NCBI GenBank assembly: GCA_015062535.1
Contig: SUUK01000001.1
Span: 195,917 to 259,916 of the forward strand
Direction: 5' to 3'
Length of the DNA: 64,000 nucleotides
Source of the DNA: Alphaproteobacteria bacterium
GTDB taxonomy: Bacteria > Pseudomonadota > Alphaproteobacteria > RF32 > CAG-239
Below are positions 3,802 through 51,489 of the stretch, in pieces. Within the stretch, counting starts at the first letter, position 1. The number at the start of each line of letters is the position of its first letter. A program made the translations under genes and the position numbers. Below the pieces are notes generated by a model that ran no database searches, was not told the origin of the DNA, and saw only the letters and a program-made list of their open reading frames with translations.

Positions 3802-4442
3802 TTCTTAAGTTCCTTTTTAACAAATAAATTAAATATCTTAAACGAAATAGGGGCGGTCCAAAAGCAAATATTAACCTCTTTAATTCCTACTTCTTTACAT
3901 ATTCCAATTCTGTGATGTCCCTGCAAAATTTGGTCTTTTACCCCAAATTTTCGATTAATCATCACAATCATTGGACTTTTTTCACTATATCCATGTGTTT
4001 TAAGCGAATTATACAAATCATTATATCTTTTATTAGCTTCTTCTTTGCTTATTTGCCACTTTTTATTGGTCCATTGATAAGCATTTTCTCTATTTCTTTC
4101 ACCTCTTGTTAGGTTTGCTTCTAATAATTTATCAAATCTAACTCTAAAACTTTGATTATTCTTAACATAAAGCTTTCTTTTAATTGGTTTTATAAGAGTA
4201 ATAAAAAATCCAATAAAAGCAGGATACGAATAATAAGCAACTTTGGTTTTTACAAAGTCATCACTATTTTTTGCTAACAATAAATCATAGCCCATACATA
4301 TCTTACAACTATTTTCATCAACTAAAATTACCGCTTCACAATCTTTAACATCTTTACATTTATCTATTTTTACAGATTCTAGCTTTAATAGATCACAAAC
4401 CTTGATAAAGTAATAATTTGAAGAAAAACATAAAACTTTCAT
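3798..4442 (-). CDS. ParB-like (GHHRI motif) protein coupled to a glycosyltransferase
   Basis: I do not recognise a named family for the whole 214-residue protein. Its C-terminal third reads PMIVMINRKFGVKDQILQGH followed by HRIGICKEVGI, which matches the ParB/sulfiredoxin-type nuclease core (ILDG-Q/H-HR, then a small helix). The N-terminal half contains a Cys-rich stretch (KDCEAVILVDENSCKICMGY). It overlaps the following glycosyltransferase by four bases. ParB-like small proteins do occur inside polysaccharide loci, so a role in glycan assembly rather than DNA partitioning is my inference. Confidence 0.65.
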   Translation of the reverse strand: MKVLCFSSNYYFIKVCDLLKLESVKIDKCKDVKDCEAVILVDENSCKICMGYDLLLAKNSDDFVKTKVAYYSYPAFIGFFITLIKPIKRKLYVKNNQSFRVRFDKLLEANLTRGERNRENAYQWTNKKWQISKEEANKRYNDLYNSLKTHGYSEKSPMIVMINRKFGVKDQILQGHHRIGICKEVGIKEVNICFWTAPISFKIFNLFVKKELKK

Positions 4443-4625
4443 ACTTAAAGTCCTATAAAATTACTATAAACTTAAAGTAAATCTAGAACTTTAAGAGTTT
4501 TACTTCAATTGATATCTTAAACTATCAACATTTTTATAAAAAATATGAATTAAATATAAAAACTACTTGTAAAACAAAAAAAGCGATATTATGTTACTAG
4601 GCATAATAATAAAAAGGGTAGATAC

Positions 4626-5000
4626 ATGGATATAATTTCTAAAAATTTAGCTGAAACTACAATAAAAATGTTAGGTGACCGCTGGAAAATTAAGATAATA
4701 GAATGCTTAATGGACGGTACTAAGCGTTTTGGTGAATTAAGAAAAGAATTAGGTGATATTACCCAAAAGGTTCTAACATCAAATCTTAGAATGTTAGAAG
4801 AAAATGGTATTTTAGTCCGTAAAGTTTATGCAGAAATTCCTCCTCGTGTAGATTATACCTTAACAACAATAGGTTATAACCTAAAACCTGTAATAGATTC
4901 AATGGTTGCATGGGCAGAAGAATATCGTGAAATGCTTATTAACGAATTTAAAGATATTGATTTAAAACAAAAAATCAATAGCCTAAACCCAATAGCTTAA
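4626..5000 (+). CDS. HxlR-family winged-helix transcriptional regulator
   Basis: The 124-residue protein has the full HxlR pattern: LGDRWKIKIIECLMDGTKRF, then LRKELGDITQKVLTSNLRML as the recognition-helix region, then RVDYTLTTIGYNL as the wing. These regulators bind palindromic operators as dimers and often sense redox or electrophile stress. The conserved N-terminal Cys used by some members is absent here. It is monocistronic, with a GGGTAGATAC ribosome site. The 180 bases upstream contain a CTTAAAG/CTTTAAG inverted repeat (4469-4494) that could be an operator for this gene or for the divergent pair. Confidence 0.88.
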   Translation: MDIISKNLAETTIKMLGDRWKIKIIECLMDGTKRFGELRKELGDITQKVLTSNLRMLEENGILVRKVYAEIPPRVDYTLTTIGYNLKPVIDSMVAWAEEYREMLINEFKDIDLKQKINSLNPIA

Positions 5001-46094: not shown

Positions 46095-48338
46095 ATGAAT
46101 AAAAACACAAACATTACATCAATTTATGCCTCAACATTAAACGCAAAACAAAAAGCTCAATTGTTTGCTATATACCGTGATTATGTATATTTATCACGAA
46201 ATTTTGAGCAAATAATCCAAATAAACCCCTCAAGGTACTTAGCAAGTAAACAAATAGAAATGATAAAAGACCCAAATGATGATAATATGCCTTGGGAATT
46301 AGGTGTTGCAAATGCTGATGAAATAAATAACTTTAAAAAATTCATATTAACCGAAGAATTAGACGATAATGCTCAAAATCTATCATTTGTAAGCTTAACT
46401 AAAACATTTCCAGAAGAAGATGAATTACCACCAATGCAATCAACTCCTTCAAACTATGGTGTTTATGCTCAAGTAAATGCTCTTCCACACAATATCGAAC
46501 GTTATGTTGTAGCATATAATAAAGAAAAAAGATTAAAAGACATAATTTTTATTATAGATGGTAAATATTCACTAAAATATACGGGTACTGCTTTCAGAAA
46601 CGCTTTAATTAACGAAGCTTTTGATAATGAAAATTTTACCAAAAATTTTTCATGTATATTAAATATATCTACACAATTTAAAGAAGATATAAGATATATA
46701 GAAAAGTCAAAATTTGAACAAGCAAATGTTGAAGGTTTAACATTAGAATTAATGTCACCATATGAAAATGTTTTACTATCAACACTATCTAATCTTGCAG
46801 AAGAAACAGATAATATATTAAAATCGCTACTATTAAAAAGAGATCCAGTCAATTACTTAAGCAAGGCAGAAAGCCAATCCCTAATTCCGAGTGCTCATCA
46901 ATTACAAGACTTACTTAATGTAAGACACTTGCTTCATCACCAGTTCGAAACATTAGATGGCTATGGAAGATTTATAAACGGTCAAGACAATCAAAATAAA
47001 TCAATTAGAACAAGATATCTAGATTCATATCAACGTCTTTGCAGTGGTACTTTTGTTGAACGTATTTCAAGATATGTAGCAACAGCTGATAATTTTAAAA
47101 ATTTAGTATCAGGATTTACTCCTAATTTACTAATAAGAGAACCAAGTGAAAGTAATAATAAATTTATTCAACGTATTAAAGAATATAGAAAAGAACATGT
47201 AGATACTCCAATTTTTATAGAAACCTCATATTCTTATAAAGAAAAAAAGAAACAAGCCTTATTAAATAGCATAAATAAATTATTTGATAATGTAGAAATT
47301 ATTGACAATATTCAAAGTCAAAACGTTGATGATTTTGTTAAACGTATATTGCTGTATATGGAACGCAAAAAATATATCGAAACATTCCAAATATTAGAAC
47401 ATAAAATGGGCGAACATCATCTATTTTTAGGAGAAAAATGTCCTCCAGCTATTGGATGGAATAAGCTTGCCAAACAACAAATAATAACTAGTAAAGAAAA
47501 TGAACAATGGGATAAATATAAAGAATTAAGAAACGAGTTAAGCCACAATTATTTAAGCCCAGAATTAGCAACCCAAATGCTTGATTTGTTACCTCAAATG
47601 CTAAAAGATGCTATAGAATTAAATGATAAAATAGATAGCCTCAAGCCAACAGTTGTAAGAACTGATAAAGGAACTTTTTTAGCAAAGCACTCCAATGGTA
47701 AAATTGTTGAAATTGATTTTGAAGAAAAGAAAATAATTAATATCATAGAACCAAATGGAAAAGTAAAAACCGAAAGAAAAACATACTCACCAATAGGTAA
47801 ATATACAGAAGAATACCCAAACAACATGAGTATAAGCCTAGAAGGTACTAAAATAAATTCAATTAAACTTCCTCATGGATTTATTATCAATTTTAGAAAA
47901 TCTAAATTAGTATTTCCAGATGCTGCAAAACTATTTATGGAAGGAAAAGACAAAAACTATTTTGTGACTCCAAACTCTAAAATAATCTTAGATAAAGAGT
48001 TTAATATTATTTCTTATATAGAAGATGGAAAAAGAATAAATGTTTCCCAATACGAAAAAATCAAAACATCCAATGCTCATTTAATAACAACTAATAGCAC
48101 GGGTAAATTAAAAACAGATGATATCAATATTGCAGGAGATAAGACAATAGTAATAAATTTTGAAATAAAAGATAATAAGACTATAATATCTTTTTCAGAT
48201 AACACCATATGGGAAATAAGCGATAAAGAAAACAAATTAAGCCACAATGGAATTGTATTATCATATAAAAATCGCAAATCCTTTGTTGATAGCTACAATT
48301 TGGGACCTCATAAATTTAGAAAAGACAACACAAGATAA
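46095..48338 (+). CDS. Large unknown protein with HEPN-like RxxxxH motif
   Basis: The 747-residue protein is not assigned. Residues 1-430 are mainly helical. Around residues 455-510 a helical bundle contains YKELRNELSHNYLSPE, where RNELSH is the R-x4-H signature of HEPN RNases and nucleotidyl-transferase partners; the surrounding helices (NKLAKQQIITSKENEQWDKY and LLPQMLKDAIELNDKIDSL) fit that fold. The last 220 residues are beta-rich with repeated strand-turn units (VRTDKGTFLAKHSNGKIVEI). The protein is soluble, with no signal peptide. It has a strong promoter and ordinary ribosome site. A toxin or defence role is possible but unproven. Confidence 0.75.
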   Translation: MNKNTNITSIYASTLNAKQKAQLFAIYRDYVYLSRNFEQIIQINPSRYLASKQIEMIKDPNDDNMPWELGVANADEINNFKKFILTEELDDNAQNLSFVSLTKTFPEEDELPPMQSTPSNYGVYAQVNALPHNIERYVVAYNKEKRLKDIIFIIDGKYSLKYTGTAFRNALINEAFDNENFTKNFSCILNISTQFKEDIRYIEKSKFEQANVEGLTLELMSPYENVLLSTLSNLAEETDNILKSLLLKRDPVNYLSKAESQSLIPSAHQLQDLLNVRHLLHHQFETLDGYGRFINGQDNQNKSIRTRYLDSYQRLCSGTFVERISRYVATADNFKNLVSGFTPNLLIREPSESNNKFIQRIKEYRKEHVDTPIFIETSYSYKEKKKQALLNSINKLFDNVEIIDNIQSQNVDDFVKRILLYMERKKYIETFQILEHKMGEHHLFLGEKCPPAIGWNKLAKQQIITSKENEQWDKYKELRNELSHNYLSPELATQMLDLLPQMLKDAIELNDKIDSLKPTVVRTDKGTFLAKHSNGKIVEIDFEEKKIINIIEPNGKVKTERKTYSPIGKYTEEYPNNMSISLEGTKINSIKLPHGFIINFRKSKLVFPDAAKLFMEGKDKNYFVTPNSKIILDKEFNIISYIEDGKRINVSQYEKIKTSNAHLITTNSTGKLKTDDINIAGDKTIVINFEIKDNKTIISFSDNTIWEISDKENKLSHNGIVLSYKNRKSFVDSYNLGPHKFRKDNTR

Positions 48339-48362: not shown

Positions 48363-48391
48363 TTGACTTTTGTGACACTATTTTATATAAA
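48363..48391 (+). promoter_or_regulatory. Promoter upstream of two terminators and the phage-type cassette
   Basis: TTGACT, 17 bases and TATAAA. Transcription should begin near 48398 and meets the first terminator within about 25 bases. The next gene begins at 48521. Confidence 0.55.
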
Positions 48392-48422
48392 AAATAATAG
48401 AATAGCATTATTGCATATTCTT

Positions 48423-48450
48423 AAGACTGGTTTTCCAGTCTTTTTTTTTA
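48423..48450 (+). terminator. First terminator before the tail-fibre gene
   Basis: AAGACTGG-TTTT-CCAGTCTT is a perfect 8-bp hairpin followed by seven or more Ts. It could end the 46095 transcript as well as the short transcript from the promoter at 48363. Confidence 0.85.
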
Positions 48451-48473
48451 TATTAATTTTTTAACATTTAACA

Positions 48474-48499
48474 AACCGCATTTTTGCGGTTTTTTTTGT
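48474..48499 (+). terminator. Second terminator before the tail-fibre gene
   Basis: AACCGCA-TTTT-TGCGGTT is a perfect 7-bp hairpin followed by eight Ts and ends only about 20 bases before the ribosome site of the tail-fibre gene. Confidence 0.85.
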
Positions 48500-48520
48500 A
48501 TTTAATTTAAGGAGAGAACA

Positions 48521-49393
48521 ATGACCATACAAAAAGAAACTTCAAAAGTAGTATATATTGCAGATGGAATAGCTTCATCATATGTTATTCCTTTTTACTT
48601 TTTTAATGAAGATATTGCTGTATACTTAAATAATAGCGATACACCATTAACAGAAAATATAGATTATACAATATCAAACAAATCAGAAACTCAAGCGAAA
48701 GAGGTTGTGTTTAATCAAGCACCAAAAGTAAATACAGTTATCACAATTGTAAGAAATGTACCATTAAACCAATTAACAACATTTATTGAGGGTGAAAAAT
48801 TTCCAGCAAGTGATTATGAAAATTCTTTAGATAAAATCACAATGGCATTACAAATGCTACAAGAAATTTCAGAACGAGCAATCAAAATCACTCACAGCTC
48901 AAACAAAACTCCCGAACAAATCCGAGAACTTATTTTAGATTTAGAAAAAGATTATTATATAATCAAAAAAGTTCCAACACTTGCTAAAACCATAACATCT
49001 ATTTATGAGGAATTATTAAATCTAACAACAGATACTGTTTCTTTTGAAAATAACCAATTAATAACATCAAAAGGAGTAGCAACTCATCTTGATAATAATT
49101 ATTATACTAAAGATAAAATAAATGATATGACCTGTCAAAAATTTGGACCAATCTTGCTAGAAACATCTTTAGTAAAAGACAATAATAGTTATTCTGATTA
49201 TCCATACTCATTAGATATTCCAATAACTGAGGCAAAATCAACACACTCACCATCTGTTGTACTAAATTTAAGTGATGCAACTTCAGGAAATATTGCGCCA
49301 ATTTCTGAAAGTTATGATGGTTTTGTTCGTATATATTTAAAAACAATACCATCTGCATCAACAATAGAAATTCCAATAGTTATATTGTGTTAG
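48521..49393 (+). CDS. Phage tail fibre/tailspike-like protein
   Basis: The 290-residue protein has the N-terminal pattern of T7-type tail fibre or tailspike proteins: a first strand TSKVVYIADGIASSYVIPFY, then LTENIDYTIS, NTVITIVRNVPLNQLTTFIE and FPASDYENSLDKITMALQML ('fpa..hE.alDkltmi.Qel'). This region attaches the fibre to a phage tail. The C-terminal half is a short beta-rich head with no enzyme motif. AAGGAGAG precedes the ATG. Holin and spanin genes follow, but no tail or capsid genes are nearby. Confidence 0.8.
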   Translation: MTIQKETSKVVYIADGIASSYVIPFYFFNEDIAVYLNNSDTPLTENIDYTISNKSETQAKEVVFNQAPKVNTVITIVRNVPLNQLTTFIEGEKFPASDYENSLDKITMALQMLQEISERAIKITHSSNKTPEQIRELILDLEKDYYIIKKVPTLAKTITSIYEELLNLTTDTVSFENNQLITSKGVATHLDNNYYTKDKINDMTCQKFGPILLETSLVKDNNSYSDYPYSLDIPITEAKSTHSPSVVLNLSDATSGNIAPISESYDGFVRIYLKTIPSASTIEIPIVILC

Positions 49394-49401
49394 GGGGGAA
49401 A

Positions 49402-49716
49402 ATGGATAAAATAAAAAGCATAATATCAGATTACAGCCTCTGGGGAATATTTATAGGTTTGATAACCTTTGCAATCAAACCTTTCATATCTATAAAACAA
49501 AGCATAAGAGATATACTAATAACTTTTATTGTGAGTATGCTAACAGGGTTATTGGCTGAATATATAGATATACCACAACCAGTTAAATATGGCATATCTG
49601 GAGTTTGTGGGTTATTTGCTGTTAGACTATATATGATATTTGATGAAATATTAAAAACAGCGCAAAAAGATCCACTAAAATTTATTTTTAATCTCAAAAA
49701 CAAAGAGCCCGAGTAG
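49402..49716 (+). CDS. Phage holin-like protein, three spans
   Basis: The 104-residue protein (start at ATG 49402 with AGGGGGG upstream) has three hydrophobic segments (about residues 10-28, 36-54 and 62-84), a short charged N-terminus and a Lys/Glu-rich C-terminus. Its size and topology fit a class I holin, which makes the inner-membrane lesion at lysis. It follows the tail-fibre gene with an eight-base gap and precedes the spanin genes. Confidence 0.75.
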   Translation: MDKIKSIISDYSLWGIFIGLITFAIKPFISIKQSIRDILITFIVSMLTGLLAEYIDIPQPVKYGISGVCGLFAVRLYMIFDEILKTAQKDPLKFIFNLKNKEPE

Positions 49717-49726
49717 GGCTCTTCTT
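49703..49726 (+). terminator. Hairpin at the end of the holin gene
   Basis: AAGAGCCC and GGGCTCTT pair around GAGTA; the stem overlaps the stop codon. The T-run is weak, so it may be an RNA-stability or partial termination signal between holin and spanins. Confidence 0.55.
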
Positions 49727-49745
49727 AACATTAAAGGAACAAACA

Positions 49746-50018
49746 ATGAAATTAAATGCAATTTTATTAATGTTGCTATTGGTTGTAATCTTTATTTGTT
49801 ATATTCAAAAAAACAAAATTAACGCCCTAGATCATAAAACCAAAACTCAGCAACAAAACTTACTTTTTTTATCACAAAAAATAAAGGATATATACAATGA
49901 AAAAATTATTCTTGAAAAGCAAAAAAAAGAACTCAGCATTGAGGCAAAAAAAGATACTTTTGATTGGAATATTGATATCAGTAATACCAATGTTATTAAA
50001 CGCCTGCAAGCATACTGA
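49746..50018 (+). CDS. Inner-membrane spanin (Rz-like)
   Basis: The 90-residue protein has an N-terminal span (about residues 4-20, AILLMLLLVVIFICYIQ) followed by a periplasmic coiled coil with KTQQQNLLFLSQKIKDIYNE and ILEKQKKELSIEAKK, the i-spanin layout. AAAGGAAC precedes the ATG. A second gene for an outer-membrane lipoprotein begins inside it in another frame, the hallmark of Rz/Rz1 pairs. Together they fuse inner and outer membranes in the last step of phage lysis. Confidence 0.85.
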   Translation: MKLNAILLMLLLVVIFICYIQKNKINALDHKTKTQQQNLLFLSQKIKDIYNEKIILEKQKKELSIEAKKDTFDWNIDISNTNVIKRLQAY

Positions 50019-50124
50019 ATACATTTACCAAGAACCCATAAAACCACCTATAACATGTATCGATACTATAAAAACACCACTTGACATGGCGTTATGCCTT
50101 AAAGAATATAAATTAAAATACTAA
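49897..50124 (+). CDS. Outer-membrane spanin lipoprotein (Rz1-like), nested in Rz
   Basis: The 75-residue product starts 151 bases into the Rz gene in a different frame and runs 106 bases beyond its end. AAGGA lies about 9 bases before its ATG. It has a basic N-terminus, a hydrophobic stretch and the lipobox PMLLNAC with Cys at residue 37. The mature part is short (39 residues) and contains EPIKPPIT, the proline-containing stretch common in Rz1 proteins. The unusually long signal region (36 residues) reflects the overlap with Rz coding. Confidence 0.85.
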   Translation: MKKLFLKSKKKNSALRQKKILLIGILISVIPMLLNACKHTEYIYQEPIKPPITCIDTIKTPLDMALCLKEYKLKY

Positions 50125-50128
50125 ACAA

Positions 50129-50171
50129 CCCCCAATTTATAGTTTTAGCTATAAGTTGGGGGCTATTTTTT
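50129..50171. terminator. Strong terminator after the spanin genes
   Basis: A 14-bp stem from CCCCCAATTTATAG to CTATAAGTTGGGGG with one G-T pair and a six-base loop, followed by seven Ts. It also faces the convergent gene. Confidence 0.9.
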
Positions 50172-50835: not shown

Positions 50836-50912
50836 TGGTAGCGAAGGAGGGATTCGAACCCCCGACACAAGGATTATGATTCCTCTGCTCTAACCAACTG
50901 AGCTACTCCGCC
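50836..50912 (-). tRNA. tRNA-Met (CAT), elongator
   Basis: The 77-base cloverleaf starts GGCGGAG and ends TTCGCT-A-CCA, with anticodon loop ATCATAA. Its body resembles alphaproteobacterial elongator tRNA-Met. I cannot fully exclude a lysidine-modified tRNA-Ile (also CAT), but the anticodon stem GAGGA/TCCTT favours Met. Confidence 0.9.
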
Positions 50913-51069: not shown

Positions 51070-51489
51070 ATGAAAATAAAATGCACTAAATGCTCATCAG
51101 AAAATTATGTAAAAAACGGCCATGTATTTGGTGGACAACGCTACATTTGCAAAGATTGTGGTTACCAATTTACTAAAATAGGTGAACGAGGCAAACCAAT
51201 GAATATCATTCTAACAAGTCATGCTTTATATATGTTTGGCTTATCAATTCGCCAAATTGCACGAGTTGTAGGTGTTTCTGCCCAATCTGTATCACGTTGG
51301 ATAAAAAAATACCATCAAACCTATATGTCAGACATTGGAAATAATGAAACAAAATATAAAGCAACCGCTGAAAATCTTGTTGATTGCCTAAACTTAAAAT
51401 CTCAAGAAAAACTCCTGGTAAGCTCACAAGAATTACCATCAGGTGCTAAAATTCACATAATAATCAGCCTCGATAATCCGTCATTATAA
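51070..51489 (+). CDS. InsA-like zinc-ribbon plus helix-turn-helix DNA-binding protein
   Basis: The 139-residue protein has an N-terminal zinc ribbon with two CxxC pairs (CTKCSSENYVKNG and QRYICKDCGYQFTK) as in IS1 InsA, then a helix-turn-helix (SIRQIARVVGVSAQSVSRWI, residues 60-79). The last 50 residues are extra and not catalytic. InsA binds IS1 ends and represses its own promoter. Here the gene stands alone between two inverted 21-bp sites and directly upstream of an RND efflux operon. AAAGGAG precedes the ATG. I infer a DNA-binding regulator descended from a transposase. Confidence 0.82.
   Translation: MKIKCTKCSSENYVKNGHVFGGQRYICKDCGYQFTKIGERGKPMNIILTSHALYMFGLSIRQIARVVGVSAQSVSRWIKKYHQTYMSDIGNNETKYKATAENLVDCLNLKSQEKLLVSSQELPSGAKIHIIISLDNPSL

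Follow-up and report, generated by a model that had tools for sequence, protein, structure and literature searches.

The 48,363-50,171 stretch of the analysed window (64,000 nucleotides of contig SUUK01000001.1, assembly GCA_015062535.1, positions 195,917 to 259,916 of the forward strand) carries an attachment-fibre and lysis cassette that a genus of gut Alphaproteobacteria has retained at the same site in 16 of 18 genomes. Structural genes of a podovirus-type particle are encoded about 92-126 kb away in the same genome and share the unusual promoter of the cassette. In the absence of expression, particle or transfer data, we consider it probable that the cassette is the remote adhesion and lysis operon of a vertically inherited, short-tailed, GTA-like particle whose dispersed operons may be gated by anti-termination.

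The adhesion and lysis cassette

Inspection of the sequence and of its open reading frames confirmed the following features:

48363..48391 (+), promoter with -35 TTGACT (48363-48368), a 17-nt spacer and -10 TATAAA (48386-48391)
48372..48378 (+), palindromic element GTG-A-CAC between -35 and -10, candidate binding or loading site of the late regulator
48399..48406 (+), initial transcribed sequence AGAATAGC, a -10-like element just after the expected start of transcription
48423..48450 (+), leader terminator 1 (stem 48423-48442, 8 pairs, plus T run)
48473..48500 (+), leader terminator 2 (stem 48473-48492, 8 pairs, plus T run)
48521..49393 (+), short tail fibre (290 aa) with a predicted T7 gp17-like N-terminal tail-binding domain
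49402..49716 (+), holin (104 aa), LydA-like / holin superfamily III; the ORF also has an upstream GTG
49746..50018 (+), Rz-like inner-membrane spanin subunit (90 aa) with an N-terminal TM
49897..50124 (+), Rz1-like outer-membrane spanin lipoprotein (75 aa), starting inside Rz in another frame and running beyond it
50129..50171 (+), strong intrinsic terminator ending the cassette (50129-50162, 15 pairs, T run)

Terminator-like sites were clearly more frequent than in shuffled sequences (7 found, 1.4 expected), whereas promoter-like hits in the region were no more frequent than chance (29 found, 29.8 expected) and the automatic sigma70 scan listed an overlapping variant, so that the promoter alone would be weak evidence. 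However, promoter, terminators and genes recur at the orthologous site across the genus. The N-terminus of the fibre matched podovirus tail-fibre PHROGs (phrog_1640, 5e-17), and its predicted structure (mean pLDDT 73) matched only T7-type fibre N-termini at low E-values. The holin was assigned to the LydA-type superfamily III (Pfam 7e-6, just under the gathering score; PHROG holin 4.5e-5), Rz matched Rz-like spanins only weakly (0.014), and the assignment of Rz1 rests on anatomy only, namely a signal anchor with an LLNAC lipobox. No endolysin is present in the cassette. The sequence-only reading had compared this arrangement with the late region of lambda, but the gene order without an endolysin resembles that of a T7-type late region at least as much.

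The genome under study (G000; 1.73 Mb in 15 contigs, 100% complete) contains the full fibre once, and a family-wide search found the fibre in 17 of the 18 genomes of the genus. In 16 genomes, htpG, an ankyrin-repeat gene, usually a gene for a 747-aa protein, and then the fibre and lysis genes were found at the same site. Rz and Rz1 are present in 12 of these 16 cassettes; two cassettes lack Rz/Rz1 and two more are reduced to the fibre alone. The 747-aa protein (46095-48338) is conserved next to the cassette in 15 genomes (32-45% identity to the others), but is lost in genome G006, lies upstream of the regulon promoter, and gave only a faint HepT-like hit and no useful fold match, and it was therefore not taken as a particle gene. 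Downstream of the cassette, a tRNA-Met(CAT) (50836-50912) is found here and in several relatives, at varying distance and orientation, and is possibly an old attachment site. An InsA-like zinc-ribbon/HTH protein (51070-51489) upstream of an RND efflux operon, conserved in relatives (61-91%), is a transposase-derived possible regulator. Named records of the genus are uncultured Alphaproteobacteria, one of them labelled Rhodospirillales, and many derive from deer, yak and buffalo gut samples.

Structural genes and the shared promoter

No capsid, terminase, tail tube or integrase gene had been noticed within the window by the sequence-only reading, but packaging and structural genes do exist elsewhere in the genome. 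The podovirus portal PF12236 is present in 17 of 18 genomes of the genus and in 13 of 13 near-complete ones; in G000 it lies on contig C14 (360871-362316), about 115 kb from the cassette (C14, about 244.3-246.1 kb). Around it (C14, 338-370 kb) are encoded TerS, TerL, portal, scaffold, major capsid protein (MCP), tail tube and nozzle proteins (phrog_376 for the tail nozzle), internal virion proteins and two muralytic proteins, interrupted by host genes such as malQ. In several relatives the same genes form a contiguous cluster of about 20 kb, with TerS, TerL, portal, scaffold, MCP and tail genes in the same order next to the same host gene (h531). The MCP is present as one intact copy in 15 of 18 genomes, plus a prophage-type copy in one more. 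For TerL, portal, capsid and holin, dN was far below dS (for the holin, dN 0-0.03 with dS 0.4-1.1 between close species) and distances tracked those of HtpG (r 0.80-0.98). The closest free-virus MCPs were only 41-51% identical, against 76-85% within the genus. No integrase or replication family was recognised among the ORFs around the cluster, although the whole genome was not scanned for integrases.

Genome G013 holds a genuine, complete, related podovirus-type prophage on its contig C3, with repressor and replication-type genes, a similar fibre N-terminus and holin, and a similar promoter before its fibre, but without terminators there, and it is useful as a pre-domestication comparison. The portal and MCP of G013 are from this prophage and its own cluster was not seen; however, alignment of the clusters showed that the prophage does not explain all portals.

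The cassette promoter was conserved in all 16 genus loci aligned, with a palindromic element in the spacer whose flanks change in step in relatives (CTG-T-CAG, ATG-T-CAT, GTG-T-CAC), an AATGG-type start and terminators before the fibre. The initial transcribed sequence mostly has the form AGAATGGC or TATAATGG in the genus, from which the window deviates (AGC for GGC). In G000 the exact motif occurs only three times in 1.73 Mb, before the cassette, before the scaffold-capsid operon and before the tail nozzle operon, while the reversed control gave 0. Across the 18 genomes the relaxed motif gave 73 hits against about 16 in the control, many of them in front of TerS, scaffold, tail, fibre or lysozyme genes. 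Further intergenic sites precede a family of proteins with a near-identical N-terminal part and C-termini of GH108, VgrG3-like/GH46, pesticin-like or unknown type. Three such proteins in G000 (C10:111001-112150, C14:350536-351699 and C14:359326-360702) have 93-97% identical N-terminal parts and different C-termini (GH108, VgrG3-like, unknown), indicating domain swapping within the regulon.

Of 44 promoter sites with enough sequence, 42 were followed by at least one terminator within 300 nt and 29 by two or more, compared to 115 and 13 of 427 control regions. In 12 of 40 sites the upstream gene is on the opposite strand, so that the terminators are not simply those of an upstream gene. As the sites are related by descent and were partly selected by the motif, these counts describe the regulon and are not independent trials. 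Terminators inside the main clusters were not enriched over the control, and an Rfam search of the leader gave nothing near a gathering score. A match to GTGACACTAT looked like an SP6/T7-type phage RNA-polymerase promoter, but relatives show a sigma70 promoter with a variable palindrome. A leader peptide at the AATGG element was not supported, as the start codon is not conserved.

A candidate anti-termination regulator

GafZ of Caulobacter is an anti-terminator whose putative element lies between -10 and -35 and which lets the polymerase pass a terminator in the GTA cluster (PMC11150451). Its operon is repressed by RogA, an S24-type repressor (PMC9632790), and GafA homologues are annotated as DUF6456 (PMC9638019). 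In profile searches PF20057 (DUF6456) was detected in Caulobacter and, mostly weakly, in four genomes of the genus. An alignment of those sequences with the prophage homologue found one gene in G000 (C2:84300-84722, E=3e-50), although its sequence alone gave no Pfam hit and the link therefore rests on this intermediate alignment. The gene is the last of a three-gene operon divergent from an S24-type repressor (contig C2, positions 4041-4736 of locus L257), and the same arrangement was seen in several relatives and in the prophage; this regulatory locus keeps early-operon genes homologous to those of a prophage. The main gap is that the GafZ-like gene was not found in 8 of 18 genomes (5 of 13 near-complete ones), and that the hit in G013 is its prophage copy.

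From these data we infer that in ordinary cells the S24-type repressor keeps the regulatory operon off, while basal transcripts from the dispersed promoters stop at the leader terminators. On induction, probably by stress or DNA damage, the DUF6456/GafZ-like protein would load at the promoter element and let RNA polymerase read through the terminators, so that heads, tails, fibre, holin and spanins are made together. Muralytic enzymes of the same regulon would supply the endolysin step, and particles carrying pieces of host DNA would be released by lysis. Anti-termination, induction, packaging of host DNA and transfer remain inferences, but overall this explanation is held with fairly high confidence. 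Of the three possibilities offered by the sequence-only reading, the remote lysis/adhesion locus of a gene transfer agent is strongly favoured over a remnant prophage or a satellite, and its analogy with lambda late control also holds up.

Alternative explanations and related systems

The same particle and regulon might operate without anti-termination, the palindrome binding an ordinary repressor or activator and the leader terminators acting as attenuators or insulators. The position near -35 would also suit a repressor and the GafZ-like gene was not found in every genome, but one or two terminators directly between promoter and gene at nearly every site make little sense without read-through control, and we regard this alternative as unlikely. 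Less likely still, the domesticated particle does not transfer DNA but acts as a PBSX-like bacteriocin or effector carrier, with the paralogous proteins of changing peptidoglycan-hydrolase C-termini as cargo. However, TerS, TerL and portal are intact and under purifying selection, which suggests DNA packaging, and the hydrolases can equally be the endolysins that the cassette lacks. A decaying prophage remnant is very unlikely given the intact ORFs, single copies, conserved sites and low dN/dS across species, although no integrase or replication genes were recognised near the cluster and the structural genes of G000 are split by host genes. A satellite or moron cassette borrowing the late activator of a helper such as the G013 prophage is also very unlikely, as the cassette is fixed at one site in nearly all species, its promoter matches the structural operons of its own genome, and no integrase was found nearby.

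Only one podovirus-like GTA-like element was found in the literature searched, FpGTA of Faecalibacterium prausnitzii (PMC12946183), while a literature phrase search for domesticated short-tailed prophages gave nothing. FpGTA is likewise from a gut bacterium and combines a main TerS/TerL/portal/scaffold/MCP operon with a second operon about 125 kb away that carries fibre, receptor-binding protein, holin and endolysin. Its host is Gram-positive and no shared promoter-terminator module is reported in the passages considered, whereas in the present case the second locus carries spanins and no endolysin, and further loci belong to the regulon. CcGTA of Caulobacter crescentus (PMC11150451, PMC9632790) shares an alphaproteobacterial host, an S24-type repressor over an activator operon with a GafZ-type regulator, an element between -35 and -10, control by terminator read-through (only inferred for the present element), and scattered accessory loci. 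However, CcGTA is of the long-tailed RcGTA type, and GafZ was seen only at the main CcGTA cluster, while here portal, fibre and tail nozzle are podovirus-type and terminators lie in the leader of nearly every regulon promoter. RcGTA and its relatives share vertical inheritance, dispersed loci and a DUF6456-type regulator (GafA), but their hallmark tail gene GTA_TIM (PF13547), detected in the Caulobacter control, was absent from all 152 family genomes, so that the present element is not of the RcGTA type.

The lambda late region pR'-tR'-Q (discussed in PMC11150451) also has a promoter, a terminator before lysis genes and a regulator element between -35 and -10, but for the present cassette no Q homologue has been shown, there are two terminators, the fibre comes first, the operon has no endolysin, and several scattered promoters are used instead of one. 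With a T7-type late region, as generally understood, it shares the order fibre, holin, Rz, Rz1 and the fibre N-terminus, as well as portal and nozzle families, but it uses sigma70-type promoters with leader terminators, and no phage-type RNA polymerase gene was seen in the regions read.

Other genera of the family carry two further cluster types at their own fixed sites, which suggests repeated domestication. Type B is a different compact podovirus-type cluster (portal, MCP, tail, fibre, holin-like, endolysin, spanin) at one orthologous site in two genera (genomes G002 and G029), where the MCP is 77-83% identical; the MCP also occurs in genomes G001, G003, G030 and G079, with an internal stop in the frame of G079. 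Type C is a third compact short-tailed cluster at one site (near a carboxylesterase, a periplasmic protein, gltX and cysS) in several genera, with lone fibre genes elsewhere in the same genomes. In type C genera the lone fibre and the first cluster gene share a weak dyad like ATCACTTNNNNNNAGTGT, slightly above shuffled background in each genome, which is perhaps a second shared operator. It is about as likely as not that the cluster of the present genus (type A) represents a short-tailed GTA scattered over many small loci, each locked by its own promoter plus leader terminators and all opened at once by one DUF6456-type processive anti-terminator, and that the family has domesticated short-tailed phages of this sort at least three separate times.

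The known alphaproteobacterial GTAs discussed in the literature searched are of the long-tailed type. In contrast, the present element is an apparently independent, dispersed, vertically kept short-tailed system in herbivore-gut Alphaproteobacteria, with a sequence signature (promoter, spacer palindrome, leader terminators) by which its parts can be found genome-wide. It makes testable how scattered GTA genes are switched on together, and how often phages are turned into host-run gene-exchange devices.
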